This document shows, piece by piece, positions 1 through 15,684 of a stretch of DNA of 64,000 bases. Within the stretch, counting starts at the first letter, position 1. Every line of letters starts with the position of its first letter. The position numbers and the translations under genes were made by a program. This DNA is from Bordetella pseudohinzii (lineage in GTDB: Bacteria; Pseudomonadota; Gammaproteobacteria; Burkholderiales; Burkholderiaceae_B). The notes beneath the pieces were generated by a model. It was not told where the DNA came from, made no database searches, and saw nothing but the letters and a program-made list of their open reading frames with translations. Where the stretch lies: the NCBI RefSeq assembly GCF_000657795.2, contig NZ_JHEP02000008.1, positions 1 to 64,000 of the forward strand, given 5' to 3'.

Positions 1-55
1 AGGTGGCTCAGATTTACTTTGCGCGAAGTGGCTCATTATTACTTTGCGCGCAACA
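1..55. mobile_element. Terminus of an insertion sequence (IS21-like, partial)
   Basis: The first 55 bases carry two direct repeats and end in CA at 54-55. Beyond this point the minus strand reads as a conserved coding sequence that the repeats interrupt. Repeated terminal motifs and a CA-3' end are typical of IS21-family elements. The transposase genes would lie off the left edge, so the family is an inference from the end structure only. Confidence 0.55.
3..50. repeat. Two 23-bp imperfect direct repeats in the IS end
   Basis: Copies at 3-25 and 28-50 both start GTGGCTCA and end TTACTTTGCGCG. They differ only in three central bases (GAT versus TTA). The 25-bp period suits multiple transposase-binding sites at an IS terminus. 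Confidence 0.8.
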
Positions 56-261
56 TAGTACTTCTCTATCACCTCTGCAACATGATGGTGGGCGCAGACC
101 TGAATCATAAAATCGACGTCACCCGTGCGCATCAGCTCCAGGCCGGCAAAGAAGTCCTCGATGTAGATGATCTCTGTTTGGTTTAGGCCATGAAAAGCAA
201 TGTAGCGACGCGTGTTGAGGTCGTGGTTGCTGCCAGCCGGACCCAAGGTAGCAATTTTCAT
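56..261 (-). pseudogene. PDT-like small protein gene, 3' part replaced by IS
   Basis: From an ATG at 261, preceded by AGGAAGG, the minus strand reads MKIATLGPAGSNHD and continues for about 68 codons until the insertion-sequence end. It is clearly related to the intact gene starting at 3731: both share IATLGP-x-G-x-NH, an RY-x2-FH segment and a D(F/Y)-(M/I)-(I/L)-Q motif. The IATLGPxG start recalls the prephenate dehydratase periplasmic-binding-like fold. The family is usually about 200 residues, so roughly two thirds of the protein is lost. The frame runs on through the IS repeats to the window edge without a stop, so a short fusion peptide could still be made. The function is unknown. Confidence 0.7.
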
Positions 262-392
262 TTCCTTCCTCGCTTTCTGTGGTTAAGCGCGAAAAGTGTA
301 GGCAGAATTGTGGATATTGCCCTGTATCTAGAGATTCAGCTGCACCACAAATCTTCGGGCCGTGCGACTGCTCTCTACCCGATGGAAATGCC

Positions 393-1085
393 ATGAGCTC
401 CGAGCCAACCTTTGCCTCTTGGGATGCGTGCCTTCCTCACACCGCCCGATGGCTTTCAAATTCTGATATCGGTCAACGGAAGGTGGTTCCTGGCGGAACC
501 CGCCTGTATCAGCAGAGTGACATGCATCGGGATTTCTACTTGATTCGCAGCGGATTCGTCCAAACCGCGATGAACCACGAAAATGGTCGACGCTTGCTGC
601 TAGAAGTAATGGGGCCAGGATCAATGTTTGGCGAAGGAGCGGCCTTCGAACAAACTCCGCGATTCGTCGATGCTTGGACCGTTACCGCCTGCGAATTGTC
701 GATGTATGAACCTGCGGAAGTGACAAAAAGTCAGGATGCAGTCGAGTTGCTTGAAGATCTGATCAAGCTGATGGCGGCAAAGCAACGAATCTTGGCATTA
801 AAGCTGCTCCAATTCAGCAATGACGAACCTGAGCTAAGGCTTCGACATCTCATTGCGCGAGTGGTGGCTGTACAAGCGCGGTCAAAGAACACTTCCAATA
901 CACAGGTCAGTCAGATCTGGATCAGTCAGGAAAAATTGGGAGAAATGTGCGGCATGAGCCGCGTGAGCGCGGCTCGGTCGCTGCGTCGTATGGCTAAGGC
1001 AGGGCTGGTCGTGACCCATCCCAAGTACGTAGAGGTACTGGACGTCGATGGTTTATTGAACAATCAATCGCATCATCTGTACTAA
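393..1085 (+). CDS. Crp/Fnr-family transcriptional regulator
   Basis: A 230-residue protein with an N-terminal cyclic-nucleotide-binding-like beta-roll (about residues 25-130, with GSMFGEGAAF as the core turn). A helix-turn-helix follows at about 176-205, containing SQEKLGEMCGMSRVSAARSL. No N-terminal cysteine cluster of the FNR iron-sulfur type is obvious. The frame is open from 279, but the preceding residues resemble no family member, so I take the ATG at 393 (MSSEPTF), which has only a weak GGAAA ribosome site. It diverges from the IS-truncated gene at 261; the 130-bp gap is the likely shared control region. Ligand and targets are unknown. Confidence 0.82.
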   Translation: MSSEPTFASWDACLPHTARWLSNSDIGQRKVVPGGTRLYQQSDMHRDFYLIRSGFVQTAMNHENGRRLLLEVMGPGSMFGEGAAFEQTPRFVDAWTVTACELSMYEPAEVTKSQDAVELLEDLIKLMAAKQRILALKLLQFSNDEPELRLRHLIARVVAVQARSKNTSNTQVSQIWISQEKLGEMCGMSRVSAARSLRRMAKAGLVVTHPKYVEVLDVDGLLNNQSHHLY

Positions 1086-1171
1086 CGAGAACTACCGATC
1101 CCACAGCAGCATACTGGGAAGAGTTGATGTTGAAGTCAGCAAAACGACGAACCAGCACCCCGGGCAGCAGA

Positions 1172-1849
1172 TCAGTCCCGCAGAGAAAAAACGACCGAAA
1201 GGTACGAAACTGGCTTCTCCACAATGGACACGACGCCGTGTAGTGCTGTAGCGTCAAAAAGCAGAGTATCGCCAGGCCCCAGATCCATGCTTCGACGGCC
1301 GTATTGGTATTGAAGTCTGCCAGAGAGGATATAAATGAGCTTAATGCCGGGATGCTGAAACGTCGTATATGGCTCAGCTTCACTTTCCAAGACGACCTTG
1401 TACGGCTCAACAAACATGTTCCCTGACAGCTGATGACCTATCAATTCGTACGAATACCCGCGAATGACGCCTTCGCGTTCGATACGTAGGCCTTTCCCAG
1501 CAGGTACGTAAGAACAATCAGTCCGCTTCTCCTGATCCGTAAAAAAGCGCGACATTGGGACGTTCAACGCTTGCGATATGCGCTCCAGCGCTTCAATCGA
1601 CGGAGACGCCAATCCATGTTCAATTCTTGAAAGCATCGACCGAGAAACGCCGGAGGTACGACCTAACGCCGCTGCGGAAATGCCGCTGGCCATCCGCAAT
1701 GAGCGAATTTGAGGCCCAAGCTGGGCAGCTACGGAACTCCGTTTTTGAGCCGTTTCAGCGCGGAGGGGATTTAGAAGCTCTGTAAGTCGAGCGGGCGGCT
1801 TGAAAGGGCGAGCGGCCGGAAATGGAGAGTTCGTTTGCTTCGATTTCAA
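1172..1849 (-). CDS. XRE-family regulator with C-terminal cupin domain
   Basis: A 225-residue protein. Residues about 44-99 form a lambda-repressor-type HTH (IRSLRMASGISAAALGRTSG, then SRSMLSRIEHGLASPSIEAL). Residues about 155-210 form a cupin (HPGIKLIYILSGRL ... LGPGDTLLFDATALHG). This architecture is typical of regulators that sense small catabolic substrates. The frame has no ATG before the HTH; the best start is a TTG at 1849, so the N-terminus is uncertain. It is the last gene of a probable leftward operon after the PDT-like gene and the Bug receptor (79-bp gap to the latter), and may control that operon. Confidence 0.85.
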   Translation of the reverse strand: MKSKQTNSPFPAARPFKPPARLTELLNPLRAETAQKRSSVAAQLGPQIRSLRMASGISAAALGRTSGVSRSMLSRIEHGLASPSIEALERISQALNVPMSRFFTDQEKRTDCSYVPAGKGLRIEREGVIRGYSYELIGHQLSGNMFVEPYKVVLESEAEPYTTFQHPGIKLIYILSGRLQYQYGRRSMDLGPGDTLLFDATALHGVVSIVEKPVSYLSVVFSLRD

Positions 1850-1928
1850 CGTGCGCTACTCTTTCTTACTGGCTTAGACGGGTCTCCAAACGGGCAAACC
1901 CGATCCCGGCATTACATCTGTAGGGTGG

Positions 1929-2894
1929 CTACTTGTTCAGGCCCAGGGCATTCCGGAATGCAGCGTATTGCGCGGACTTGAGCTGAACAAACTCATCGGC
2001 TGTGCCGTATTTGGCCGGAACGACAGCCAAGCTTTCCATCCTAGCCATGAACTGCGGGTCCTTTTGCATGTCCCTCACCGCATTGCCAACCACCTCTGCG
2101 ATCGAAGATGGCAGCCCGGGTGGGCCTTGGAGCGCATACCATACCTTAGTGTCGAACTTTTGAAAATCCGGATACTCACTTAGGCTAGGTAGATCAGGCG
2201 TGATGGACGTACGCTGCGCATCTGTGGTCGCCAGTGCGATCAGTTGGCCATTTTGGATGTACGTAAGGGCTGACGGCAAGGCAAGGACAGCTACATCGAC
2301 GTTCTTGCCGATCAAGTCATTTATGATCTGGGGGGCGCTTTTATAGGGAACTCGCAGTGTCTCGATGCCTGCGGATTTCTCAAACATCAAGCCTGCCAAG
2401 AACAGGCTGGTGCCGGGACCAGATGTGGCGAGAGCCAGCTTGCCAGGGTTGGCCTTCGAGTATGCGATGAGGTCGCCGACCGATTTGAATCCCAAGTCTG
2501 GCCTTGCCACCAACACCATTGATTGCGTGCCAATAAGCGCTATGGGAGTTAGTGTGGAAGACTTCCCGGAGGGCATCGTTCCGCTGGCCATCTGTTGCAT
2601 TTCAAATTCCAAACCATTGCTGACTGCTAGAACGTAGCCATCGGCTGGCGAATTCATGGCTTTGTTCACAGCTATCGTTCCTCCGGCTCCGGGAATGTTC
2701 TCGATAATGACGCTCTGTTTAAGCCTGCTGGACAAACCCTCGGCAATGTACCGTGCCATGGTGTCCGTGCCGCCGCCGGCGCCGTAGGGCACAATGATTG
2801 TGATAGCTTTCGCGGGATACGCTTGTGACCAGGCAGTTCCCGTCGCGACAAAGAAAGCAAGAAAAGCAGCGATTCTTCTGAGATGCGAAATCAT
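1929..2894 (-). CDS. Bug-family (TctC-like) periplasmic solute receptor
   Basis: A 321-residue tripartite tricarboxylate transporter receptor. An N-terminal signal peptide ends near AWSQA. The family signature follows (YPAKAITIIVPYGAGGGTDT, then a pyroglutamate/carboxylate-binding lobe with ATSGPGTSLFLAG). Length is normal. The ATG at 2894 has AAGGGGAAC in the right place. No TctA or TctB membrane subunit is nearby, as is usual for Bordetella-type orphan Bug proteins, so it either feeds a remote TctAB or acts as a sensor. Neighbours are a PDT-like protein upstream and an XRE-cupin regulator downstream. The ligand cannot be read from the sequence; a carboxylate is most likely. Confidence 0.92.
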   Translation of the reverse strand: MISHLRRIAAFLAFFVATGTAWSQAYPAKAITIIVPYGAGGGTDTMARYIAEGLSSRLKQSVIIENIPGAGGTIAVNKAMNSPADGYVLAVSNGLEFEMQQMASGTMPSGKSSTLTPIALIGTQSMVLVARPDLGFKSVGDLIAYSKANPGKLALATSGPGTSLFLAGLMFEKSAGIETLRVPYKSAPQIINDLIGKNVDVAVLALPSALTYIQNGQLIALATTDAQRTSITPDLPSLSEYPDFQKFDTKVWYALQGPPGLPSSIAEVVGNAVRDMQKDPQFMARMESLAVVPAKYGTADEFVQLKSAQYAAFRNALGLNK

Positions 2895-3101
2895 GTGTTC
2901 CCCTTACGATTTATTGCCCGGTCCGGGCTATGGCTGATGCTCGACCCTACTTAGGGCCGGATGACGACTTTTTTGCGACGTATGAAGGTGAATCCGTTTT
3001 GAAACGTGGCTCCTGTAGCCGCACTGAATGATGTGGTGACCGGCGCCACTTGCCGGGCACAGTGCGTAGAGGGCGCGTGATCTGGACGCGTCTCTGGTCG
3101 C

Positions 3102-3731
3102 CTACCCGCGATTCCGAGCCGCTTCGCCCCTCAATATTTCAAGGTCCCGTGAAAACCCACTCTCCCTGGACCCTAAGATTTTTCCGTTGTAGGCTCGCGT
3201 TCTGCCATATACGATCCAGACATCATCAGGCGAACCGATGACTTCCTCGACTCGAACTTTGTCGGGATGCTTGTCCGCATAAGTGCGGTAAACGAGCCCA
3301 GAGTCGATCTCCCCAGCCAGGAGGCTCTCAAAAATCAGAGGCAATGATTTCATGGAAACTTTGGTTTCCCAACGCGTGAGGTCGCAGTAGCCCTCATTCG
3401 CCGGTAGCAGGGCTCCGATAGTTTTAGGGACCGTCACGTCAAGCCTGGTCAGGATCGCCAACTCTTGGCTATCTGAAATAAAACTGTCGATCGCAAAAAC
3501 GTCGCGAAAGTTCTCACCTAGCGTTTGAGGAGTTTCCGGGTGTACGGCACACTGAAGGATGTAATCGATGGAGCGTGCGCGTAACATTGCGATCGCCTCG
3601 CGGAACGAAACGACGAAATTAATCTCATACGATTTGACGTCATGAAACTCCATGTATCGCTTGCAGACCATTTCGTGATTGGTACCGCGGGGACCGAGCG
3701 TGGCAATTCGTACTGTGGGTTGCTGATTCAT
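3102..3731 (-). CDS. Small protein with prephenate-dehydratase-like N-terminus
   Basis: A 209-residue soluble protein without signal peptide. It begins VRIATLGPRGTNHE, like the first beta-loop of prephenate dehydratase/BacA-type domains. Later segments such as LTRWETKVSMKSLP and SLLAGEIDSGLVYRTYADK resemble a periplasmic-binding-protein-like two-lobe fold. It lacks an ACT domain and I cannot see the TRF motif needed for dehydratase activity, so enzyme function is not supported. It is the first gene of a probable operon with a Bug receptor (207-bp gap) and an XRE-cupin regulator. A paralogue disrupted by an IS starts at 261. A ligand-binding or isomerase-like role on the compound bound by the receptor is only a guess. 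Confidence 0.75.
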   Translation of the reverse strand: MNQQPTVRIATLGPRGTNHEMVCKRYMEFHDVKSYEINFVVSFREAIAMLRARSIDYILQCAVHPETPQTLGENFRDVFAIDSFISDSQELAILTRLDVTVPKTIGALLPANEGYCDLTRWETKVSMKSLPLIFESLLAGEIDSGLVYRTYADKHPDKVRVEEVIGSPDDVWIVYGRTRAYNGKILGSRESGFSRDLEILRGEAARNRG

Positions 3732-4119
3732 CGATGGAACCGGTAGTTGGTGGGACTTCTTCAGCCACAGTATTTAGGCAGACTTCTCAAACGGCAACCG
3801 GTTCATCCCATGCAAATGGCGCGAGAGGTCGTCGCCACGAGCTCACACTCTGTCGTTGCATGACATGCAATTGAGTGATGTCCGCACTTGGATCATCGAC
3901 GAGAACTCATTCACGCTGAGCGGGTCGCCATTGCGAGGGTGTATCGCTGTATACACACTCCTGGGAAGTCAGCCTGGATAAGTCACGCGGGAGACAACGA
4001 AGCGCACCCACCACTAGGCCCGGACTGCGGGCCTCTGCCACTGGGCTCACCGTCTACTCGGTACGGGCCCCCAGCGCAAACTGCCGATCGCCGAAATGGT
4101 CTCTCAAGGGGGGCGCCCG
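3732..4119. other. Intergenic region with inverted repeat at 3939-3956
   Basis: About 390 bp separate the start of the PDT-like gene from the end of the helicase gene. I see no convincing gene. It should hold the promoter for the leftward operon starting at 3731. A perfect 6-6-6 inverted repeat, GTGTAT-N6-ATACAC, sits at 3939-3956, about 210 bp upstream of that start, and could be an operator. A 7-bp GC-rich hairpin at 4016-4034 lacks a T-run. Confidence 0.4.
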
Positions 4120-5649
4120 TCAACGGACCTTGAAAAGGGGACTCGGATTGGATGTCGAAACCACCAATGTGAGCGACTTTTTTGCCCTGCTCAAGGCTAC
4201 ATACATCTTGGATTTGGCGTACAGGGTCGATGTGAACCGCGCCTTGTCGCAGGCCATCAGCATCGCGTGGTCGCACTCCAGGCCCTTCGCCTTGTGAATG
4301 CTGCTTAGCACCTTTGGGGGTAATGAAGGACGGGAATGGGAGCGCATACGCGACACCTCCGCAAATCCTTCGTCCGGATCTGCAAACTGGCCGATGCGCA
4401 CGGCATCCCGCAGTTCGGACCAGTGATCGATCTTCACGGTGTCAAAGCCCGCGGCGTTATCCTTCACCAGCGCAACGATTTTTGTGAGTGCGTTCGACAC
4501 GCCCGTATGCGAGGGATTGTTCAGGAGGCATCGTGCGACCGCCTGGATGTTGGCCGGCTTGCCCGTGGTGGGGCGCGCCGCCCTGGTACGAACTTCTTGC
4601 AAAAGTCGGTCACCGTGGCTGGACGAGCTGAATCCCGCTGCGACGCTTCCCATGAAGGAAATGAGACCCTGCGCCACCGTTTCTGGATCGCCATGACTGG
4701 TGCGTAGTGTCTGTACGAGCGTCCCTAGCGCATCACGCGTATGCCCTTCCCAGATCGGCACTGTCCGAAACCAAAAGGCCCGAAGGGCCGACACCAAGTC
4801 GTTCTGCGATGCGAGAACCATAAGCTGCGAGCTGCTTTTCAGCATCTTGTCGATCGGTACTCGATGCTCCTTGGACAGTTGGTAGCCCGTACGCATCTGC
4901 GCCGTGTTGTTTCCGACAAGCACCCTAACTGATGGAGGTAGCGCTCCGGTCAGGTCTATTGGAGATCCGCGTTCCAAGCTCTCCCGCGCCTCGATTACCC
5001 AAGCCCCCAACAGAGGACAACCGGTATTCCAGCGGTGAGGGGTGATCAGCTTCTCGCCCGCTCCCTGCGCCTTCAAAGCGTCCCAGCGGGCACGATCCTC
5101 GCGCGCGGCTTTGTCGGTCTTGGCGCCGTAAATCCGCTGCATGGGATCACCAAAGATCCGGACAGTTGCGCCAGCGGACAGTAAAGACATGACAACACTG
5201 TGCTGATCGACACTAGTGTCCTGGTGTTCATCGCACACGATGACTGGGTAGCGCTGGGCTAGTGCACGAGCGACCATTGGCTGATGGCGCAGAAATCCCG
5301 CGACTTTGGTTGCCATGATCTCAAAGCCTTGCCCTCCATCCCGCCAAGCCCAGGAAGTTAGATCGCGCGGAAGACCAAGTGGCTTGTGATACGCCAGCGC
5401 GATCTGCGCAATCAAGGCATCGATGGTCTTGATTTCGACGCGTGACCCGGCTTTCTTCGTGCGTTCTGCGAAGACAGAGCAAGCGGCGTGGGTGTGCGTC
5501 AGGATCAACAAGCGGCCATCACCGATCGCACCTACCACCTCCTGCGCGTACGCAGCGGCCTGATATGTCTTGCCGCAGCCCGCCGCAGCTTCAATGATGA
5601 CTAGCCGCTCGGGTGAGCGGAGAAGCTTGGCAACGGCGTGGTCGCTCAT
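4120..5649 (-). CDS. gajB: UvrD/PcrA-like helicase, Gabija GajB-like
   Basis: A 509-residue superfamily 1 helicase. Visible motifs in order: Walker A EAAAGCGKT (about residues 17-25), motif II VCDEHQDTS, motif III FGDPMQRIYG, motif V SSIHKAKGLE and motif VI YVALSRAKKS. This is shorter than UvrD (about 720) and close to GajB (about 490-500). The start at 5649 is set by a 4-base ATGA overlap with the stop of the upstream OLD-family nuclease, showing tight translational coupling. In Gabija, GajB partners the GajA nuclease in anti-phage defence. The open frame runs another 155 codons upstream, but that is a shadow of the nuclease gene. Confidence 0.85.
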   Translation of the reverse strand: MSDHAVAKLLRSPERLVIIEAAAGCGKTYQAAAYAQEVVGAIGDGRLLILTHTHAACSVFAERTKKAGSRVEIKTIDALIAQIALAYHKPLGLPRDLTSWAWRDGGQGFEIMATKVAGFLRHQPMVARALAQRYPVIVCDEHQDTSVDQHSVVMSLLSAGATVRIFGDPMQRIYGAKTDKAAREDRARWDALKAQGAGEKLITPHRWNTGCPLLGAWVIEARESLERGSPIDLTGALPPSVRVLVGNNTAQMRTGYQLSKEHRVPIDKMLKSSSQLMVLASQNDLVSALRAFWFRTVPIWEGHTRDALGTLVQTLRTSHGDPETVAQGLISFMGSVAAGFSSSSHGDRLLQEVRTRAARPTTGKPANIQAVARCLLNNPSHTGVSNALTKIVALVKDNAAGFDTVKIDHWSELRDAVRIGQFADPDEGFAEVSRMRSHSRPSLPPKVLSSIHKAKGLECDHAMLMACDKARFTSTLYAKSKMYVALSRAKKSLTLVVSTSNPSPLFKVR

Positions 5650-7403
5650 AGATCGAGCTCTTCCACCGTCTTGTGGCCCACGGCTGTCAGTACTGCGTTG
5701 ATCAACGGAAGCAACTGCGGCTGCATTTCCGCCCAAGCGCCTAACGCCACCATTTTCTGGGCCAACTCCTGCCCACCAGCGTTGGACTTGAACCATTGCT
5801 GGGAATGCTTCTTCCAAGCCTTTTCTTGGCCTGTGGGCGCGCCATCCTTGCTTCCGCTGGCGGCTGCGATAATCAAAGTGCGCCACGTTTTTCCGGAGGC
5901 TTTCAGCGCCGCATCTATCGCCTCGATGCTCTTGTCCTGAAGTCCCAGGCGCTCCGCTAAAGTCCGAAGGCGATAGCCATCCAGTTCGCCTTCTGCATCT
6001 TTCAGCAATGCGAGAAGATTTTCTTCGGGAATGGCCCCGATCACATGATCCTCGGTGCAGCCCTTGGACCACTGGTGCAATCGTTCTTTGAGCTTGTCCT
6101 TCAGCTTCTTCCACCGCTCAGGAGCCGTACCTTCGTCGTCAGCCAGGCCGGCAAATAGCAAACCGGAAGACGCGAGCGTCTCCAACAGATCCAAGGTCGC
6201 ATCGTTTCCCTGACCATCGCAGACTCGCACCCCGTGATCGAGCGGGTTGCCCTTAAAGGCCCTCTCTAATAGGTACTGTAAAAAGCCGACTTCGGTGGGC
6301 CCTTCTGCAATGACGGCCACACGCGCCAGAAATGTTTCAGGATCGCGTTTCTGCTGTGGCCCGATCTTGTCCCGAGGCAGCGCCCCGATGGCGCCCGCGC
6401 TGTCCAGATACCAGAGGTCCGCCTGCTCGGCACACGAAATGGCGATAGGGCTATGCGTCGTGAGGAAAATCTGTCCGTGTTGGTTGGCCAGGATATTGAT
6501 GAGCTTGCGCAGACGGTATGGCTCCAGCCCGCGCTCAATCTCATCGATGAGGGTAACGCTTGCTCCCTTGTCCGTTGACGATGCGATTTCGAGTGCAGCC
6601 ATACGTCTGGTGCCAGCACCCCAACTGTTCAGGGGCAACGCCACCCCATTCTCGGTCGCCACTAGCCCGATGAGCGCGCCGATGGACAACCCCTGGCTCG
6701 TCGTAAGACCGAGTTTCAAATTGCTGGGAAGCGCGGCACCTGCCATGCGCGCATCCAGCGATTCAATCGCCTCCTTACCCTTGTCATTGAGCGAATCGTG
6801 CAAATTGAGCCCTGCGACCTCCTTGCCGATACGTGCCCGCAATGCGCTATCGGCCAACAACCGATCCAGCGCCGAGCCATAGACAAGGCGCAGATCGCGA
6901 TCATTGCGCTCATCCGCGCTCATTCGAACCAAGCCGATACGCCGGCGAACGGCTGACGAAAAATGGGCCGATTCGTCATCGGGTTGCACGACCTCCCATG
7001 CGAGTTCCAATTCCGCGGTACCCCGTACCCGCACGCGATATACCGGCTCGCTCGGCGCGGCAGGGCCTTCTTCGTCGGCTGACGGAGGTATCGCATCCTG
7101 CCCGTTCCACGCCCACGGCCACGCAAAAGTGCTCTGCGAGCCGATGCCGGTCGTATCGGGTAGGGTCATGACGGCTTCGATGACGAATTCCTGCGCGCTG
7201 TCGCGCGCCCAATAATCGGCCTCAGAGATGACCGCAGTGTTCGATGGCGAAAGCAGCAACGCAATCGCTTCGAGGATGGTCGTTTTTCCGGCGTCACCCC
7301 CACCCAGGATGACGTTCATTCCTTTCGCAGGCCGCCATGTTAGGGAGTGGATGCCCCTGAAGCGTTGAATAGTTATTTTATGAATTCGTGCTGTTTGGGC
7401 CAT
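5646..7403 (-). CDS. gajA: OLD-family ATPase-TOPRIM nuclease, Gabija GajA-like
   Basis: A 585-residue protein. The N-terminal ABC-type ATPase has Walker A GGGDAGKTT (about 34-42), the signature NSWGAGTRRM, Walker B VTLIDEIERGLEP and the H-loop FLTTHSP. A C-terminal TOPRIM domain follows (AVIAEGPTEVGFL, then CDGQGND and GLADDEG). This is the layout of overcoming-lysogenization-defect nucleases and of GajA (about 580 residues). An ATG at 7433 is possible, but the one at 7403 has a good GAGGATGAC ribosome site. Its stop overlaps the helicase start by four bases, giving the two-gene Gabija layout. It sits next to radC and an integrase, a usual place for mobile defence genes. Confidence 0.86.
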   Translation of the reverse strand: MAQTARIHKITIQRFRGIHSLTWRPAKGMNVILGGGDAGKTTILEAIALLLSPSNTAVISEADYWARDSAQEFVIEAVMTLPDTTGIGSQSTFAWPWAWNGQDAIPPSADEEGPAAPSEPVYRVRVRGTAELELAWEVVQPDDESAHFSSAVRRRIGLVRMSADERNDRDLRLVYGSALDRLLADSALRARIGKEVAGLNLHDSLNDKGKEAIESLDARMAGAALPSNLKLGLTTSQGLSIGALIGLVATENGVALPLNSWGAGTRRMAALEIASSTDKGASVTLIDEIERGLEPYRLRKLINILANQHGQIFLTTHSPIAISCAEQADLWYLDSAGAIGALPRDKIGPQQKRDPETFLARVAVIAEGPTEVGFLQYLLERAFKGNPLDHGVRVCDGQGNDATLDLLETLASSGLLFAGLADDEGTAPERWKKLKDKLKERLHQWSKGCTEDHVIGAIPEENLLALLKDAEGELDGYRLRTLAERLGLQDKSIEAIDAALKASGKTWRTLIIAAASGSKDGAPTGQEKAWKKHSQQWFKSNAGGQELAQKMVALGAWAEMQPQLLPLINAVLTAVGHKTVEELDL

Positions 7404-8038
7404 GTCATCCTCAATTGCATGGAATAGGGGCATACCCAGAAACCCGTTCTCTTACGTCATTCAGGAGCGCGGGCTTCGGATACCGTCACCGGTTCACAAT
7501 CGCGCGCATTTCTTAATTGCAACAAAATGCTAAGAACATAGCTTAGCAGTACTCAATCCAGTGAGCATTCTTGGTATCAACTGTCTCTGCGAAAAAATGC
7601 AGACGACCGCTTTCGCGCTTCACTAGACATTGGCGCGCTACAAGTGATTTTCTGCTTCTTGGGCGCGGGCAGCCGTTGATGACGGGCCTTTTCCGTCCGG
7701 CGCGCGCACGGGCACGCTCCCTGGCGCAAAGGGGGGCAACGGTAGGCACTTTTGCGCGGGTCCCCAGTCGGACCGATGGAAGGTGAGATGGTCGAGAAGC
7801 AGCCGACATTCCCGGACAAGCGCGAAGTTGGCGAGGCTTTTCTCATCGTCAAGCAGTGGGATGCGCATGCGTGAGGTCAGTCCGGCAAGGGCACTGGCTT
7901 CTTTTGGTGGGCTCCAGATAATGACCATTGACCACTGACCACAGCCAACAGCGCATGGTGACGCCAGTTTCGACACCTTCCTTTGTTGACGACCGATCGC
8001 CAATGGTTGGTTGGCGACCCTCGCTTTTGGAGAGAGCA
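7404..8038. other. 635-bp gap between gajA and radC, no clear gene
   Basis: This stretch should contain the gajA promoter (leftward) and the radC promoter (rightward). Several overlapping frames are open on both strands, including a minus-strand one from 8039 to 7638, but none has a ribosome site or a recognisable domain. A 7-bp sequence repeats three times in tandem at 7922-7942 (TGACCAT, TGACCAC, TGACCAC). It may be a decayed remnant of island genes. Confidence 0.4.
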
Positions 8039-8578
8039 ATGCAACTAAGTTTCAGTAGTGCGTGGGCAGGAGAAAGGCGGGTGCAGGAAGATGTCCAAGA
8101 CGCACCAGTGGTACGCGAGGCGGGCGGCCTCTATCGAGCCGCAACCGCGGAAGAGCTGCTACGTGCGGCTGCGCAGCAATTGGAGGGGGCGCTGGGTAGT
8201 CGCTTGCCAGTGGCCAAGCCATCCGCCGCCATCGACTATATCGTGACGCGGCTGGCGCTGTCGGACGTTGAGGTGTTCGGCGTAATGTTCCTTGATGCGC
8301 AATTGAGAATGATCGCCTTCGAGGAAATGTTCAGAGGCACGCTGTCTGAGACGAGCGTGTATCCGCGCGAGGTCGTCAAGGCGGCTATTCGGCACAACGC
8401 GCATTCCATCTTGATTGCCCACAACCATCCCTCGGGTTCGTCGCAGCCAAGCAGGGCGGACGTTGAGGTTACGCGGCGCTTGAAGGAAGCAGTGGCTCTG
8501 GTGAATGTGACATTGGTCGACCACGTGATCGTGGCGGCAGGTAGCGGCCATTCCATGGCCAAGATGGGCTTGATCTAG
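8039..8578 (+). CDS. radC: RadC-like JAB/MPN domain protein
   Basis: A 179-residue protein of the short RadC class found on islands and integrative elements. The C-terminal JAMM metalloprotease-like fold shows the full zinc set: the upstream Glu in FEEMFRGT, the HNHPSG histidines, then Ser and Asp in PSRAD. The frame is open from 7928, but the ATG at 8039 has a GGAGAGAG site, and the resulting MQLSFSS start matches the short RadC family. The chromosomal helix-hairpin-helix N-terminal part is absent. It is followed by a strong terminator. The molecular role is unsettled; DNA repair was the historical name. Confidence 0.88.
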   Translation: MQLSFSSAWAGERRVQEDVQDAPVVREAGGLYRAATAEELLRAAAQQLEGALGSRLPVAKPSAAIDYIVTRLALSDVEVFGVMFLDAQLRMIAFEEMFRGTLSETSVYPREVVKAAIRHNAHSILIAHNHPSGSSQPSRADVEVTRRLKEAVALVNVTLVDHVIVAAGSGHSMAKMGLI

Positions 8579-8599
8579 GCTTGCCCGCCTGCGTCCAAC

Positions 8600-8631
8600 A
8601 GCCGAAGACCGAACGGTCTTCGGCTTTTTTT
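8600..8631 (+). terminator. Intrinsic terminator after radC
   Basis: An 11-bp stem (AGCCGAAGACC / GGTCTTCGGCT) with a GAAC tetraloop is followed by seven T residues. It lies 22 bp beyond the radC stop and overlaps the last codon of the convergent integrase gene. Confidence 0.9.
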
Positions 8632-10120
8632 ACGCCGCGAGTAGCTGCTTGGCGGTGAGCCGCTTTTGAAGCTCGGCTGGCGCCACGGTTCCCGACAGCA
8701 GTCTTTCCAAATATTCGCCGAGCTTCGCCCATGCTGCTTGCTTCTCGTCGGCGTAGTCGTAGAGTTGGTAGTGCCGCCTGACACGGTTCTTGCCCGTGTG
8801 AATGACGTGATTTTGGCAGCGGTCGATGATGTTTGGATCGATTCCCAGTGACTCCATGATGGTCGACCCCGTTCGCCGCAAATCATGAGGCGTCCAATTG
8901 CCGTTTTGGCCTTTGCCGAGCACCAGGGAGTTGTCCGAAGCGCGACGTGCTTTGGCCTTTCCGTTGAACATGGCTTGCCGATCTTTGATTTGCTTAGTAA
9001 AGGCCTGCTTGTACATCGGTTGGTCTACCCCCGCGTCATCATTGTCGCGCGAAGGTAGGAGCCAGCGGGATGATCCTGCCAGGCTGACCAGGGTCTCGAA
9101 ATGCTTGACTGCGAAGGGTGACAGAAAGACCAGGTGGTCGCGCTTCTGTGATTTTCTGCCCTTGACGTTCGCCTTGGGAATGAACCACGTACCTTCTCGG
9201 AGATCGAGATGCGAAATTTCGGTTAGGTGCAGTTCCCCTATCCGGCATAGCGTGCTCAAACAGATCCAGGAAACTGCCTGCAACGCCTTGGATGGAGGCT
9301 TCCTCTTTCGCTTGTCATCCGAAGCGAGATACTGCTCCTCCAACTCGCGGTATCGAGTCTGGAGTTCGACAATCTCAATAGGCGGGAGAACCCGTTCGCG
9401 CGCGTTATCCGGGTCGTAATCGTCCGCCAGGAGCACCCCGAGCTCAACCAGCTCAACCGGATTCCCTTCCGAAAGCAGCTTTCGCCATGGTTGGCGCTTT
9501 TCTGCCCAATGGAACATCTGGCCCAGTATTTGGTAGGTCACCTCGGCAAGCCGATTGCAACCGCGGCCGACAATCGAGCGGATCACTCGCTCAATATCCT
9601 TCTCGCGAATTGATCGCACGGGAGTATCACCGATCAAGGGAAGCACGTCTTTTTCAACGATGCGCTTCACTTCGGTGTTGCCATCTGCTCGCTTCACTCC
9701 CGATTCCAGCCAACTTTTATACATCTCTTGGAACGAAAGGGCGTCGGTCGTGGCCTCTTCTTCAGCGGCGGTTACAGCGGCAGATTCAGCTGCCATAGCT
9801 TCCCGCACCTGGGCTTTTTCCAAGTCGCGGACGGCTGACGGATTGCGGCCCGCCTTAATGTCCGCCCGCGCTTTGTTCCTGGCGGAGCGGATCTCGTCGA
9901 GTGTGCGCTCCGGCCATGAGCCGCAGTAGAATCTCTTTACCTTGTCGCCCATGCGATAGGCGTATCGCCACACCACGGCCATCGTGCCGCGCTGAATGCG
10001 GATCTCCCCACTCAGGCCGTCTCCATCGGCCAGGTGATCACCGACCCATTCCGCCGGTACCGCTTCCAGTTCTTTGACGGTCCACCGCGCACCTTTTCCG
10101 CGTTTTGGGTATCTCGTCAT
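8630..10120 (-). CDS. int: P4-type tyrosine site-specific integrase
   Basis: A 496-residue recombinase. The N-terminal arm-binding DUF4102-like region includes IRIQRGTMAVVWRYAYRMGD and the usual LDEIRSARNKARADIKAGRNP-type pattern. A SAM-like core-binding domain lies in the middle. The C-terminal catalytic domain has Arg in LCRIGELHL, His-x-x-Arg in TPHDLRRTG, and the tyrosine region RRHYQLYDY. A TTG start at 10153 is possible; the ATG at 10120 gives the more usual MTRYPKRG-type start with GAAGAAAT upstream. It is transcribed away from the tRNA-Pro fragment 180 bp upstream, so that fragment is its probable attachment site. It should excise and integrate the island. Confidence 0.93.
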   Translation of the reverse strand: MTRYPKRGKGARWTVKELEAVPAEWVGDHLADGDGLSGEIRIQRGTMAVVWRYAYRMGDKVKRFYCGSWPERTLDEIRSARNKARADIKAGRNPSAVRDLEKAQVREAMAAESAAVTAAEEEATTDALSFQEMYKSWLESGVKRADGNTEVKRIVEKDVLPLIGDTPVRSIREKDIERVIRSIVGRGCNRLAEVTYQILGQMFHWAEKRQPWRKLLSEGNPVELVELGVLLADDYDPDNARERVLPPIEIVELQTRYRELEEQYLASDDKRKRKPPSKALQAVSWICLSTLCRIGELHLTEISHLDLREGTWFIPKANVKGRKSQKRDHLVFLSPFAVKHFETLVSLAGSSRWLLPSRDNDDAGVDQPMYKQAFTKQIKDRQAMFNGKAKARRASDNSLVLGKGQNGNWTPHDLRRTGSTIMESLGIDPNIIDRCQNHVIHTGKNRVRRHYQLYDYADEKQAAWAKLGEYLERLLSGTVAPAELQKRLTAKQLLAA

Positions 10121-10157
10121 ATTTCTTCGAATCTCTCCGTTCTTCTGCCTCAAGCGC

Positions 10158-10184
10158 CATATGGGACAACATATGGGACAACAT
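10158..10184. repeat. Tandem 12-bp repeat upstream of the integrase
   Basis: CATATGGGACAA occurs twice in tandem (10158-10169, 10170-10181), followed by CAT. It lies in the integrase promoter region and could bind integrase or a repressor. Confidence 0.65.
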
Positions 10185-10264
10185 TTTTGCGGCTGTCAGC
10201 GTACATTAGCGAACGTCGACGAACAAGGAAATTTGGATAAAGCCTTACGAATCAGCTGGTTATT

Positions 10265-10292
10265 CGTTCGCTGACGTTCGCTGACGTTCGCG
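10265..10292. repeat. 10-bp tandem repeats beside the attachment site
   Basis: CGTTCGCTGA is repeated 2.8 times at 10265-10292, immediately before the tRNA-derived sequence. Related GCGAACGTC stretches lie at about 10209-10220. Short direct repeats next to a crossover site are typical arm-type binding sites of integrase or an excisionase. Confidence 0.7.
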
Positions 10293-10301
10293 CGTTTCTA
10301 A

Positions 10302-10346
10302 TTTGGGAGCAGAGGGTCGCGAGTTCGAATCCCGCCGCCCCGACCA
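10302..10346 (+). other. 3' half of tRNA-Pro(UGG): island attachment site
   Basis: The 45 bases begin at the anticodon loop TTTGGGA. They continue with the 3' anticodon stem GCAGA, variable region, T-arm with loop TTCGAAT, acceptor strand CGCCCCG, discriminator A and CCA. The 5' half is absent: upstream is island sequence with repeats, so this cannot make a tRNA. Together with the adjacent integrase this marks the island end produced by recombination into the tRNA 3' half. The intact tRNA-Pro(UGG) should lie at the other end of the island, outside this window. Confidence 0.88.
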
Positions 10347-10358
10347 AACAAATCAAAG

Positions 10359-10394
10359 GATAGGCTTGCTTCTGGCAAGCCTATCTTTTTTTTT
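10359..10394 (+). terminator. Intrinsic terminator of the original tRNA-Pro gene
   Basis: A perfect 11-bp stem (GATAGGCTTGC / GCAAGCCTATC) with loop TTCTG and nine T residues lies 12 bp after the CCA end. It belongs to the original chromosomal tRNA locus and marks the chromosome side of the junction. In the other direction it may also help end the fimbrial operon. Confidence 0.92.
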
Positions 10395-10403
10395 CGGGTC
10401 CGG

Positions 10404-11384
10404 TCAGTAATAAAGCGTCGCAACAATGGTGTCGCTATAGCTGCCGACGGCAAGATCCGGCTGCGCGGGCACTTCGCCATACACGGTGATGGCAACGGTG
10501 TTGCCGGCGACATCGGTGGTGCCCGCGGCCCTGTCTGTCTCGTCATCGTCGCCCCAGACGCGGGTATGCGCTTCGTCCAGATACAGCTGATAGCGCGCGG
10601 TGCCCGCGGGGCCGGCCATTCTGCGCATGGCGCCGTCAAAGTGCTGGCCATTGTTCAAACCGACTTTCCATGGCGTGCCGGGCGCGCACTGGACCCGGAT
10701 GGATCCGTGTTCGTGAATGGCTTGCTGGGGCGGGGGCGTGGCGCCGAAATTGATGTCCGTCGCCACGATCCAGCAGGCATTGTCATAGGTGGCCAGGACG
10801 CCGGAGGAGTGGAATGCGAGCGAGCCGCCGCCGCTGCCCCCGCTTGTGCAGTCCGCCGAGACGGGATAGTCCGTGTTGCTGTAGCGGTACCGCAGCGTGC
10901 CCTGGATGCCTTGTTCCTGGAAGTTCCGCGATGCGGACACGGCCTGCCCGGGATAGACCCAGCCGTAGATAGGCGCATGTGTCGATACGGGTGAGCCGGG
11001 CGTCACGGCGAGTTGCGTCTGGTAGACCGGGATCGAGCCAGGCGCGCCAATCAGCTGTGTGTGCGCGGGATCGGAGAACAGGTCGTACTTGAGGAATCCG
11101 CCGTTGTAGTTGGTCATGCGCCGCGTGGCCTGGCCCGCGCTCCAATCGCCCGGGCCGAGATAGAGGCATATCTGGTAGTACAGTGTCCGGCCGCCGGCGT
11201 AATCCGGCGCGCAGGTGTACTTCAGATTGCTGGTCGTGGCCCGGCCGGCCGCGGTGACCGTCCCGAAGTTCATCGAGAACGCGCCGTTGACATGGCAGGT
11301 CTGCGCCTGGGCGCTTGGGCTGGCGAGAAACAGCAGCCCCATGGCCATCAGTTGGCACAGGCCCAGGAGACGTCTTATCGGCAT
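10404..11384 (-). CDS. Spore coat U domain fimbrial tip protein (CsuE-like)
   Basis: A 326-residue secreted protein with a signal peptide ending at SAQA. Two spore-coat-protein-U (SCPU) domains follow, each opening with a cysteine-containing strand (residues about 29-165 and 195-326). The second ends in the SYSDTIVATLYY-type final strand. Two-domain SCPU proteins are tip adhesins in archaic (Csu-type) chaperone-usher pili. It is last in the leftward four-gene operon and overlaps the usher stop by 10 bp. The surface ligand is unknown. Confidence 0.85.
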   Translation of the reverse strand: MPIRRLLGLCQLMAMGLLFLASPSAQAQTCHVNGAFSMNFGTVTAAGRATTSNLKYTCAPDYAGGRTLYYQICLYLGPGDWSAGQATRRMTNYNGGFLKYDLFSDPAHTQLIGAPGSIPVYQTQLAVTPGSPVSTHAPIYGWVYPGQAVSASRNFQEQGIQGTLRYRYSNTDYPVSADCTSGGSGGGSLAFHSSGVLATYDNACWIVATDINFGATPPPQQAIHEHGSIRVQCAPGTPWKVGLNNGQHFDGAMRRMAGPAGTARYQLYLDEAHTRVWGDDDETDRAAGTTDVAGNTVAITVYGEVPAQPDLAVGSYSDTIVATLYY

Positions 11385-13780
11385 ATCAGCTCTCCAAGAT
11401 CAAACCGGCCATGCTGGGCGAGGCCCGTGGGAAGTTCGACCGCGCAACGCCCCCCCCGGTCGCGGACGGTGATCTTGGCGCCTTGCGGCGGGTCTTCGAC
11501 ATAGACCCGGCCGTCATAGCCGACCACGATCGTCCGGTCTCCCGGGCTCAGTTTCGCCACCGTGCCGGCGCGGACGAAGGCGCCGGAGGCATGGCGCAGC
11601 GCGAATTCAAGCGCCAGCGTCGTTTTCATGGGAAAGCGCGCGACCATCCCGCTGCCGGTGGCGGGCACCGCCTTCATGCGGACGCGCTCGACGCTCACGT
11701 CCGCGGGCAAGACCAAGGGGTCGACGGAAAGGTCGTTTTCCTGCCAGGAATTGAGCGGCGTGACCAGCAACAGGCCTTTGTCGTCGGTCGCGCCGACCAG
11801 GCGATTCTCCAGTTTGACGGGGACGTTCGCAATGCCATCGGTCGACACCAGGGCGAAGGAGTCATAGACGCGCCGCATGGGGAAGACGCTGCCCTTCATG
11901 AGCAAGATGCCTCCGGTCGCGCCGGCATAGCCGGTCGTGTTGCTTGGGGCATCCTGGTTGTGCCAATACTGGGTGCCGGCCCGCCATTCGCCGTAGCGGC
12001 TCAGTTGATTGATTTCGGCCTGTCCGCCGCCTTCCTGGCCCGCGCTGGCCTGCATCCGCCATCCCCAGCCGTCGGCGTCGCCGGGCAGGTTGCGGGCAAG
12101 CCCCGCGGTGGCGGTATTCCCATGGTTTTGATGTTCCATGCTGGTCCACGCCTGGAGCTTGTCGCCCAGCGGCAGGGTCCAGTAGGCGTACGCGCTGGTG
12201 CCGCCCTTGCCGTCCAGGTCGCGATTGGCGCCTATGCTCAGATGGCCGTATCGGCCCAGGGATTGCGACCAGCTGAGTCCGGCGTAGCTGGCGCGCGGGC
12301 TGTCGCGATAGTCTTGCCGGACATAGCTCGCGCCCAGCTGCCCGCCGCCTATGCTCCAACCCAGGAAGGCCTGGGAGGTGCGCAGCGGCAGCCGGGATCC
12401 CTGCAGCGTGCCGATGTCCCGGAATGAGGCGTCCCGGCGCACGGTGGAAAGATTTACGCTGATGTCATGGCCCTGCCACTGATAGCCGGCGCCGTACTGC
12501 TTGCCGCGCTGTGCATCCTGGTTGCTCGATGCGCCCGAGACGTTGACCACGCCGAGTTGGCCCAGTCTGAACAAGGCGCCCACGCCGCCCATGGTCAGGC
12601 CGCCGGCCGCCTCGCCATGCGCCTCCAGCGTGATGGTGTTGCTCAAACCGTAGCGGCCGCTGGCGCTGTACATGACCTCGTTCGCGTAGGAGAAAGAGCG
12701 CAGGCCATAGTCTTCGCGCAATTTCCCGACTTCGAACGACCAGTCTCCGAGACCCTGCTGCAGCAGCTGGGTGCTGTTGTAGATCGAAAAATTGACGACG
12801 CGGCGCTGCCCGGTAATGTCGGTGATGACCATCTGGGCCGTGCCCGCGCCGGTAATCACGGGAGTGCCGACGATCTGAAACTGGCCCGGCGGCACCTGGC
12901 TTTGCGCCTCCCGTATGCCGTTGACATAGAGATCCACCACGGAGGGCAGGGCGGTTTCGCCGACGAAGGACGCCAGTGGCACGGTCACGCGATAGGGCTG
13001 GAGATCGAAATTGCGCGAGATGCGCAATCCGCCAAAGCGCATGGTGCGGGTCCAGGACAGCGCGCTGTTGAAGGTGTCTCCCACGGTCGCCGTGATCATC
13101 GGGTCCGGGAAGTCCAGCTGCCAGGAGCTGTCCAGGCGCGTGCTGGTGAAGGTGTTTTCACCATGGTTGCCGCCCAACGATTGGACCAGGTTGCTCGTCT
13201 TCCATAGGCCCGGGCCCACCCCGAACATCCTGAACTCGGTCCAGCCGCTGACCATCCGGGCGCTCCGGTCTTTCTGGCCATAAAGATCGTAGTTGAGCAG
13301 CAATCCCGGCGCCTGGGCCGTGGGGTCCAGATGGGGCATCGCGGGCGTGCGATAGCCCAGTTCGGTTACCGGTCCGCTCAGCGAGCTGACGGGAGCGAGC
13401 AATATCAGCTGCTGGTCTGTCGCGTCATAGTCCTGCCGCAGGCCCGGCACGTCGTCCAGCTTGACCAGGCCGGAGGCCGATGCGGCGCCAGGCCAGGTCA
13501 GGCCCAGGTCCGTAAGCGTCGCCGCATCCGCCAGCAGCTGGCCGTCTCGCAATACGAAGTGCGCCACACGCCGCAAATGAACGCGGTTGAGCATGACCTC
13601 CAGATAGAGGTCTTCGTCCTGCCGGGAATCCGCGGCCTGGCCGGCCGGCGCTTCCTGGGGCTGGGGCCCCGGGTGTTCAACCGCCTGGGCGGCGCACCCG
13701 GGTTTCCCTATCCCGATTGCAAAGACAACGCTAGCGGCAAGTGCCTTCCAGGGGCACCGCTTGTGCGTCAGTGTCATCAT
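11375..13780 (-). CDS. Fimbrial outer-membrane usher (CsuD/FimD-like)
   Basis: An outer-membrane usher of about 800 residues. The N-terminal chaperone-binding domain contains DLYLEVMLNRVHLRRV after a signal peptide. The beta-barrel follows, with plug-region sequence such as FVGETALPSVVDLYVNG and VVNFSIYNSTQLLQQGLGDW. A C-terminal domain ends near FDLGELICR. The frame opens at a TTG (13801); I prefer the ATG at 13780 (MMTLTHKR), which still overlaps the chaperone gene by about 50 bp. It exports and polymerises the SCPU-domain pilins brought by the chaperone. Confidence 0.92.
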   Translation of the reverse strand: MMTLTHKRCPWKALAASVVFAIGIGKPGCAAQAVEHPGPQPQEAPAGQAADSRQDEDLYLEVMLNRVHLRRVAHFVLRDGQLLADAATLTDLGLTWPGAASASGLVKLDDVPGLRQDYDATDQQLILLAPVSSLSGPVTELGYRTPAMPHLDPTAQAPGLLLNYDLYGQKDRSARMVSGWTEFRMFGVGPGLWKTSNLVQSLGGNHGENTFTSTRLDSSWQLDFPDPMITATVGDTFNSALSWTRTMRFGGLRISRNFDLQPYRVTVPLASFVGETALPSVVDLYVNGIREAQSQVPPGQFQIVGTPVITGAGTAQMVITDITGQRRVVNFSIYNSTQLLQQGLGDWSFEVGKLREDYGLRSFSYANEVMYSASGRYGLSNTITLEAHGEAAGGLTMGGVGALFRLGQLGVVNVSGASSNQDAQRGKQYGAGYQWQGHDISVNLSTVRRDASFRDIGTLQGSRLPLRTSQAFLGWSIGGGQLGASYVRQDYRDSPRASYAGLSWSQSLGRYGHLSIGANRDLDGKGGTSAYAYWTLPLGDKLQAWTSMEHQNHGNTATAGLARNLPGDADGWGWRMQASAGQEGGGQAEINQLSRYGEWRAGTQYWHNQDAPSNTTGYAGATGGILLMKGSVFPMRRVYDSFALVSTDGIANVPVKLENRLVGATDDKGLLLVTPLNSWQENDLSVDPLVLPADVSVERVRMKAVPATGSGMVARFPMKTTLALEFALRHASGAFVRAGTVAKLSPGDRTIVVGYDGRVYVEDPPQGAKITVRDRGGRCAVELPTGLAQHGRFDLGELICR

Positions 13781-14549
13781 TGAATCGAGCTTTAAGCGCA
13801 AGGCCGGCGGTCAGCGGCGCGGGAGATTTGATCGCCCATCCCATTTGTTTCCCAGGCAGCACGTAGCCGAGCAGGCCGTCTTCGATAAGCTGTTGTTTCC
13901 CATCGGTCGATACGGCGGTCACCGAACTGATCCGCAGGGCGCGCGGACTGTTATTGCTGAAGCGCAATTCCGTGCCGCCGCCTCTGCGCGGCGTGAACTG
14001 GGCGCACACCCGGCTGAGGTCGGTCTTGTGCGGCGCTTGCGCGTCATCCGCGGGATCGGCCGGCTTGGCCGAACTCGCCGCGATAAAGACGGGTATGGAG
14101 TAGCGCAGCAGGATTTTCAGCCCCACCCCCTTGGCGGGCGTTTCCTGGGGCAGCTCGTCAATCAATACCCGATAGGTCTGTTCATCCGCGGCCGGGGTGG
14201 GCTTCAGGCGGACGATACGCACGGTCTGCCGGTTGCCCGGCGCCACCCGCATGATCGCCGGGCTGGCGACCACGTCGGTCGCGGGGATCAGGCGATCCGC
14301 GCCGCCTTCCTGCGTCCAGCGCATGACGCGCACCTGCGCTTCCAGGGGATTCTGGCCGCTGTTGAAGACTTGCAGCGCCTGCGCTGACTGGGCGGACTCG
14401 AATTGCAGACGCACGGGCGACACCTGAAGCACCGCCGCCTGCGCTGGCTGCAGGCTTCCGAACGCAAGCCAGGTCGCCATGGCGCCGATGAGGCCGGCGG
14501 CGGCATACAGACGCGGGCGACGGTATGCCGGATACTTGATCAAGCTCAT
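13731..14549 (-). CDS. Periplasmic fimbrial chaperone (CsuC/PapD-like)
   Basis: A 272-residue PapD-family chaperone with a signal peptide ending near AQAA. The first immunoglobulin-like domain has VSPVRLQFES and the G1 strand region (GVGLKILLRYSIPVFIA). The donor-strand and subunit-anchoring basic residues lie around VRIVRLKP. The second domain has LRFSNNSPRALRISSV. It is the second gene of the operon, 17 bp after the pilin gene. It stabilises pilin subunits in the periplasm and hands them to the usher. Confidence 0.92.
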   Translation of the reverse strand: MSLIKYPAYRRPRLYAAAGLIGAMATWLAFGSLQPAQAAVLQVSPVRLQFESAQSAQALQVFNSGQNPLEAQVRVMRWTQEGGADRLIPATDVVASPAIMRVAPGNRQTVRIVRLKPTPAADEQTYRVLIDELPQETPAKGVGLKILLRYSIPVFIAASSAKPADPADDAQAPHKTDLSRVCAQFTPRRGGGTELRFSNNSPRALRISSVTAVSTDGKQQLIEDGLLGYVLPGKQMGWAIKSPAPLTAGLALKARFNDDTDAQAVPLEGTCR

Positions 14550-14566
14550 AGTGGCCTCCAGATTTT

Positions 14567-15085
14567 TCAGTAAGTAATAGTGGCCGTGATGGTGTCGAGA
14601 TAGCTGCCGACAGGCTCGTTGCCGGCCAGCCTGGCTCTGGCGAATACCGTGAGCGCAATGTTGTAGGCCGGGCCTATGCCCTGCCCGATGCCCGAGTACC
14701 AGGAGGTGGAGTCATTGCCCCAGTTCTGCGTGCGCGCGGCGTCGTGCGTCAACTTGTAGCGGATGGAGGTGCCGGAGCTCGCATTGAGCATGGCCCGGTC
14801 GTCGGGATCCCGAGACGTCGTGCCGCCATCAAGGCCCAAGGTGAAGGGCAGGTCCTTGGTGCACTGGACCTGGATCGTGCCGGTCTCGTCGATGTCGAAA
14901 TTCGCGGCGGCGGGATGAGAACCAAACTCAACATCGCTGGCGGAGACAATCAGGCAAGTGCCTTGAATCGAAATCCGCACCTGGAAGGTCGTGTCCGTCG
15001 TCTGGCTCTGGGCCAGGGCGGTGCTTGATGTTCCGGCAATGACGCTGGCGGCCAATACCCGGGATAAGCGGCGAAAACTGTGCAT
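14567..15085 (-). CDS. Spore coat U domain major pilin (CsuA/B-like)
   Basis: A 172-residue pilin with a signal peptide (MHSFRRLSRVLAASVIAG ... ALAQ). A single SCPU domain follows: one early Cys in GTCLIVSASDVEFGS, a second in IQVQCTKDLPFTLGL, and the terminal strand GSYLDTITATITY. The frame is open from 15208, but the 41 extra residues precede the signal peptide. The ATG at 15085, with GGGATGA upstream, fits. As the first gene of the operon it is the likely main shaft subunit. Confidence 0.87.
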   Translation of the reverse strand: MHSFRRLSRVLAASVIAGTSSTALAQSQTTDTTFQVRISIQGTCLIVSASDVEFGSHPAAANFDIDETGTIQVQCTKDLPFTLGLDGGTTSRDPDDRAMLNASSGTSIRYKLTHDAARTQNWGNDSTSWYSGIGQGIGPAYNIALTVFARARLAGNEPVGSYLDTITATITY

Positions 15086-15684
15086 AAGATCATCCCAAAA
15101 ATGTGAATGCATCCATTGCGCGAACGTCGTCATGGTTCGAGTCAACTCGCAGATGAGCGATCCGCCCACCTGTGTCCAGGTGAGACAGCGGAGCGACGAC
15201 GGCATCATGCATGGATGAGTCAGGCCAAGCCTTTGGCAGGGTTATCAGGAAATGATGGCGGAGGGCGCCGATGTCGACGCATGTGCAGGAGACTGCGGGC
15301 TGCATGGTTCGATGCAGCGTCCCAGCAGAGACCGATAGGCACATGAAACGAGGAACCCATCACGCTCGGGAAAAGGCACGGATTTATTGATTCTGTAAGT
15401 GGGCGCCTTGAATGTGAGCGGTGACAGTGATATTGACGTTCGGGAGGCTAACCGGAAAGGCCGCGCCAGCCCATTAAGGCTTTCCCCTAGGGAATCCAGG
15501 CAGGCGCATCAGGCGGATTCTGTTACGAACGATGTTGGCTCGCGCCGCGGTTGTTCGGCGTGAATGGACGCCCCAGTGGGATCATCGCAAATACGCGATG
15601 TCCGCTTTCTGTGGAAAGAATTCCGTGGACATGGGCACTGTCGTGATGCGCTCGTTTCTTGCCGCCGCGCGGGCAGGGCGTGTT
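15086..15684. other. 599-bp region upstream of the fimbrial operon
   Basis: No credible gene is seen; open frames here are short or antisense. It should hold the promoter of the leftward pilus operon. Two symmetric elements stand out: GCTGCAT-N6-ATGCAGC at 15299-15318 and TTCCC-CTA-GGGAA at 15482-15494. Neither is followed by a T-run, so they are more likely protein-binding sites than terminators. Confidence 0.45.

Follow-up and report, generated by a model that had tools for sequence, protein, structure and literature searches.

The first 64,000 nucleotides of contig NZ_JHEP02000008.1 of Bordetella pseudohinzii (hereafter the window) contain, on the minus strand between positions 4120 and 7403, a pair of genes that very probably constitutes a Gabija system from a divergent branch of the class 2 OLD nucleases. 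The identification rests on agreement between gene order, protein lengths, gene overlap, profile matches, predicted folds and the conserved pairing of the two genes. Gabija is reported to be among the commonest anti-phage systems, found in more than 15% of sequenced genomes (PMC10781630), and the pair belongs to an already known kind of system because it is detected by PADLOC models. An original prediction made from the nucleotide sequence had placed a TOPRIM-bearing OLD-family ATPase and a UvrD-like helicase here, with the order, lengths and motifs of Gabija; both frames are present, PADLOC and Pfam agree on their nature, and the pairing is conserved in relatives. The gene pair with its overlap, domains and conserved residues, the predicted folds, the relatives and the mobile cassette are all described here from this analysis.

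The first gene (5646-7403) encodes a GajA-like class 2 OLD ATPase/Toprim nuclease of 585 amino acids, or 595 amino acids if counted from an ATG at 7433. Position 7403 is the better start because the GajA-like proteins of relatives begin close to it and GAGG lies five bases ahead of it; residue numbers in this text are those of the 595 amino acid frame. The second gene (4120-5649) encodes a GajB-like UvrD/Rep-type superfamily 1 protein of 509 amino acids, and both frames are open at these coordinates. The two genes have the four bases ATGA (5646-5649) in common, at the stop of the upstream and the start of the downstream one. The two genes had been described as fused by this ATGA; the overlap is there, but the genes are overlapping and not fused. 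All helicase motifs claimed for the second protein were seen, that is, what we take to be motifs I, Ia, II, III, IV, V and VI.

Profile comparisons, which had been proposed as a check, place the known Gabija models on top for both proteins. The best PADLOC model for the first protein is GajA PDLC04168 (251.7 bits, E 3.8e-75, residues 15-582) and for the second GajB PDLC04173 (190.7 bits, E 1.1e-56, residues 16-500). In Pfam, AAA_21, AAA_15 and OLD-like_TOPRIM exceed their cut-offs in the GajA-like protein, the last with 25.8 bits against a cut-off of 23.2, and UvrD-helicase and UvrD_C do so in the GajB-like protein. In NCBIfam, 18 models were listed for each protein, among them repair enzymes, and all stay below their cut-offs. 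A search with the single GajA-like sequence found solved GajA chains only at E 0.36-0.86, ranked behind retron, Septu PtuA and other proteins. A family profile built on 36 rows, the window protein included, ranks Bacillus cereus GajA first among solved structures (E 5.3e-17), followed by PtuA (1.6e-14), a retron ATPase and the class 1 protein TsOLD (2.1e-12). The predicted fold of the GajA-like protein includes a match to the Toprim domain and resembles solved OLD and GajA proteins. For the helicase, the corresponding profile places UvrD (7e-24) narrowly before GajB (1e-21), and the 50 VIA rows listed for the predicted model of this protein include no GajB chains, which counts neither for nor against Gabija.

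Three other systems were considered and rejected. The partner of PtuA in Septu is the HNH-type PtuB, while the partner gene here is UvrD-like, and the score on the NCBIfam PtuA model is 44.9 bits where 500 would be needed, so that the pair fits neither Septu nor retron PtuA. PARIS consists of AriA with the partner AriB; the AriA model covers only residues 39-329 with 72.7 bits, less than the GajA score, and the partner is helicase-like. A class 1 OLD protein, encoded by a stand-alone gene, is excluded by the helicase gene directly downstream.

The branch to which the GajA-like protein belongs was represented by 58 full-length members, a number that includes identical sequences (L043-L045; L079 and L080). 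The ATPase residues K50, D297, E298 and H327 (Walker A, Walker B and H loop) and the Toprim residues E377, E381 and G401 are present in all 58, D432 and K549 in 57 each and E461 in 56. It had been claimed that the Toprim acidic residues are intact, which is true of E377, E381 and D432, but the second aspartate of the DxD motif is a glutamate, E434, in the window protein. This glutamate is found in 53 of the 58 members and aspartate in the other five. At the position two residues before E461, 49 members have a cysteine (C459 in the window protein). The HMMER alignment places E434 opposite D434 of GajA and stops ahead of D511. The active-site residues reported for GajA are E379, E383, D432, D434, D511, D513 and K541, and the equivalents in BpOLD are E400, E404, D455, D457, T506, E508 and roughly K562 (PMC10822852; PMC10781630). 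D511, D513 and K541 lie beyond the profile alignment, so that their counterparts in the window protein are putative at most. On this footing K549 would be the counterpart of GajA K541, E461 that of the BpOLD ligand E508, and C459 would correspond to BpOLD T506.

The six metal ligands of BpOLD are reported to be absolutely conserved across class 2 OLD proteins, and neither of the single changes D457A and T506A discernibly altered cleavage by BpOLD, according to the available parts of that study (PMC6755086). The DxE motif therefore need not mean loss of activity. DxE as a signature unique to this branch was dropped as an idea, since among 28 other helicase-linked OLD proteins the second position is D in 20, E in 4, Q in 3 and K in 1. 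Labelling the tree with DxE in this branch requires at least three changes.

In that tree, constructed with a quick method and containing several long branches, the 58 members are held together with a Shimodaira-Hasegawa-like approximate likelihood ratio test (SH-aLRT) support of 100, and a sister group joins them with a support of 99. Long branches separate both from the other 28 OLD proteins that are linked to a helicase. All 13 fetched loci of the sister group encode DxD and have a GajB-like helicase frame downstream. Three of its members score 630-781 bits on PADLOC GajA PDLC04168, compared with 252 bits for the window protein. The sister group is thus the group of the best-scoring known model and resembles the window pair in having a GajB-like gene, but it keeps DxD where the window protein has DxE. 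On the best reading, the pair is a Gabija system of a well-supported, mostly proteobacterial branch that is far in sequence from the Gabija of B. cereus, other tested Gabija systems being outside the comparison.

The reference for comparison is the Gabija of B. cereus VD045 (GajA 578 and GajB 494 amino acids by PDB chain; 8sm3, 8jqb and 8u7i), the source of all solved Gabija structures matched wherever a source is named. The pair shares with it the gene order, the sizes and the combination of an ATPase-Toprim protein with a UvrD-like partner, and the window protein shares with B. cereus GajA the E-x3-E motif, the first D of DxD and the overall fold. Unlike that GajA it has DxE for DxD, and the relationship is found with a profile but hardly with a single sequence. 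BpOLD (594 amino acids), as described in the accessible text of PMC6755086, is likewise of class 2, has a tandem and often overlapping helicase gene and a two-metal Toprim site, but it has D457 and T506 where the window protein has E434 and, by a putative correspondence, C459. The predicted fold of the window protein also resembles the class 1 OLD of Thermus scotoductus (6p74) across both domains; class 1 genes are described in the same paper as stand-alone and shorter on average, in contrast to the window pair with its conserved helicase partner.

A single scan of genome_contigs gave 64 loci with relatives, whose taxa were taken from record titles. Most come from alpha-, beta- and gammaproteobacteria and a few from Acidobacteriota; Gemmatimonadota, Verrucomicrobiota and Planctomycetota contribute a single locus each, and Actinomycetota and Bacillota two distant relatives. 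Many of the records are metagenome assemblies. The helicase gene immediately follows the GajA-like gene in 57 of the 64. In one of the remaining seven (L067) the first gene is interrupted, and in the six without a helicase it is in every case truncated or cut off, three of them lying within 33 bases of the sequence end. The overlap could be measured for 67 pairs at 73 loci, a set that takes in the window and the plasmids; it is 4 bases in 43, 1 in 10, 8 in 5, 11 in 4 and of other lengths in 5.

Some relatives are carried by conjugative plasmids. Matches were found in 313 of 72,556 plasmid records; 21 of them cover 80% or more of the protein, and all are below 60% identity. In genomes of the same family some match occurs in 31 of 268, and copies with at least 78% identity in five, of which one is the window itself, three are at 91% and the last is at 78%. 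A search of 50,697 phage records gave no match to the pair, and a pattern scan of viral_contigs confirmed no relative.

The unit that is shared between genomes is a mobile cassette of about 3.4 kb made up of the two genes and about 150 bases upstream. When the first 16,000 bases of the window were compared, 28 of 67 loci had DNA in common with it, with all matches inside 4016-7614. In three genomes from the same family the stretch in common is exactly 4121-7556, at 91% identity. Because the sharing never extends past 4016-7614, radC and int do not travel with the pair. Both genes are present beside it as predicted, a RadC-like JAB-domain gene (7928-8578, plus strand) and the tyrosine integrase of the island (8630-10153, minus strand), but they belong to this island only and not to the cassette. 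The conserved upstream stretch (7404-7556, minus strand), which has 91% identity with the three genomes, probably carries the promoter. It contains TGCTA and TTAGCAT-N-TTGTTGCA in five of five aligned sequences, and in the window these elements make up an inverted repeat, TGCTAAG-N7-CTTAGCA (7528-7548), which is possibly an operator or promoter element.

The neighbours of the relatives were sampled as 98 hand-picked open reading frames (ORFs) of 207 called mechanically, with PADLOC at E 1e-20. The 98 matched 132 PADLOC models, retron reverse transcriptases included, while the 33 ORFs of the window outside the island matched a single model, of the generic ABC type. Pfam matches among the 98 neighbours are to ResIII (in 4), integrases, resolvases, HsdR and N6 methylase, among others, and also to ordinary metabolic genes. 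The defence-type neighbours are a trend and not a rate, because the counts are of models. Together with the patchy occurrence of the pair they fit defence better than housekeeping. On a plasmid of Rhizobium gallicum, a Shedu gene (L002, 4494-5900, minus strand) directly adjoins a related pair. Mad3 was dropped as a further defence gene of the window because its model hits many ABC ATPases of the genome (260 matches) and 14 of 14 control genomes.

That the two genes instead process DNA ends or stabilise plasmids and islands, with no anti-phage action, is unlikely. UvrD is both the best structural match and the best profile match of the second protein, and carriage of some relatives by conjugative plasmids would suit such a role, but RecF (52.4 bits, cut-off 172), UvrD (25.6 and 1144) and RecB (44.6 and 696) all fall short in NCBIfam, and distribution and neighbours favour defence. 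The original prediction had named one sequence outcome that would speak against Gabija, namely that unrelated OLD/helicase pairs or repair genes match best; this did not occur. It is very unlikely, too, that the pair is a separate OLD/helicase defence system with the parts list of Gabija and an origin, trigger and active site of its own. The low identity to B. cereus GajA, the DxE motif with C459 and the long branches parting the branch and its sister group from the other helicase-linked OLD proteins point that way, but GajA and GajB are the top profiles, and the group joined to the branch at 99 SH-aLRT contains the three high-scoring members on PDLC04168. The tree leaves the question of a separate origin undecided because no experimentally tested GajA is among its rows.

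Decay or inactivation of a Gabija, its nuclease lacking one metal ligand, would account for E434 in place of the second DxD aspartate, but it is highly improbable. Glutamate is kept in 53 of 58 members, and the lysine and the remaining presumed ligands in 56 to 58, a pattern resembling selection rather than decay; both frames are open, and the D457A change in BpOLD did not discernibly affect its cleavage (PMC6755086). A more specific proposal is that the branch forms a subtype of Gabija in which the two-metal site has been rebuilt, with glutamate for the second DxD aspartate and cysteine at the T506 site, kept by selection across proteobacteria and a few other phyla, and that the nuclease may differ from B. 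cereus GajA in cutting mode, metal or trigger. The published descriptions, available in part, contained no account of a Gabija with TOPRIM DxE or of this branch. The proposal is tentative and rather doubtful, and was rated lower because the Gabija systems of Pseudomonas aeruginosa PA14, Providencia stuartii and Ligilactobacillus salivarius lie outside the sequence comparison.

For a Gabija system of this branch, assembly, trigger, DNA target, the roles of single residues and protection can be proposed by analogy with other Gabija and OLD proteins. Gabija is reported to form a ring that contains GajA and GajB in four copies each (PMC10822852). The GajA-like protein would assemble through its ATPase domain, and the GajB-like subunits would dock onto this assembly. 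The complex would stay idle at normal nucleotide levels or while end-repair enzymes of the host handle DNA ends, and would be triggered by falling nucleotides or by injected linear phage DNA that escapes these enzymes. Nucleotides inhibit cutting by GajA, and nucleotide depletion has been put forward as an abortive route, according to sections of a review (PMC10568477). The Gabija of P. aeruginosa PA14 is reported to interfere with linear DNA not handled by RecBCD, a result that argues against the depletion model (PMC12407980, available text). The Toprim site would then nick or degrade phage DNA with two metals held by E377, E381, D432, E434 and E461 and with K549 as the catalytic lysine, and the infection would be halted.

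The cassette had been placed in a tRNA-integrated island. The integrase and the 3' half of a tRNA-Pro (UGG) with CCA (10302-10346, plus strand), located by genome search, are in keeping with this, but ARAGORN found no whole tRNA in the window. Rfam on 1-16000 gave a single sub-threshold tmRNA match (12.8 bits) lying over the tRNA half, and a reading as tRNA-Arg from its loop was corrected by the genome search. The half is probably the right attachment site of the island. A 25-base repeat (10158-10182, plus strand), probably an arm or attachment repeat, has an identical copy by the intact tRNA-Pro (UGG) of the genome (14523-14599 on contig C5), the two tRNA copies being 93% alike over 58 bases. 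The G+C content is 0.52-0.60 in positions 1-11,000 of the window, 0.60-0.74 beyond and 0.54-0.62 in C5:1-14,000, and the window starts at the first base of its contig. The likeliest arrangement is one island divided between contigs C47 and C5, with C5 carrying the other end. In a search for empty sites at four tRNA-Pro loci of the same genus (blastn, E 1e-10), the flanks matched neither island side except for the tRNA itself with up to about 50 following and 21 preceding bases, so that the join is proposed and not observed.

At this probable other end of the island, contig C5 also carries a Dsr1-type SIR2 defence gene (5127-8960, plus strand; PADLOC PDLC02183, 2256 bits). Next to it lies a 976 amino acid ResIII/DEAD helicase (9184-12114, minus strand) that weakly matches models of type IV restriction. 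No RecB exceeds its cut-off in the host genome, and a 1130 amino acid frame on C5 with several RecB-like stretches may be AddA. In the window, a 209 amino acid ORF of the island (3105-3731, minus strand) has no Pfam match at E 0.001. Genes that look fimbrial from their ORFs (10404-14549) adjoin the island end, and a stretch 78% alike to this region lies on contig C1 (330176-333592) of the same genome; among the matches listed in 40 relatives, those beyond the tRNA part are no longer than 163 bases.

The branch keeps the pairing of the two genes yet swaps a ligand described as absolutely conserved, and it thereby allows the contribution of single Toprim residues to nicking, degradation and protection to be tested directly. 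The shared DNA marks out a clean cassette of 3.4 kb for such a test. The pair is ordinary in kind, with a mildly interesting active site; if it behaves as other Gabija systems do, it would be just one more case.
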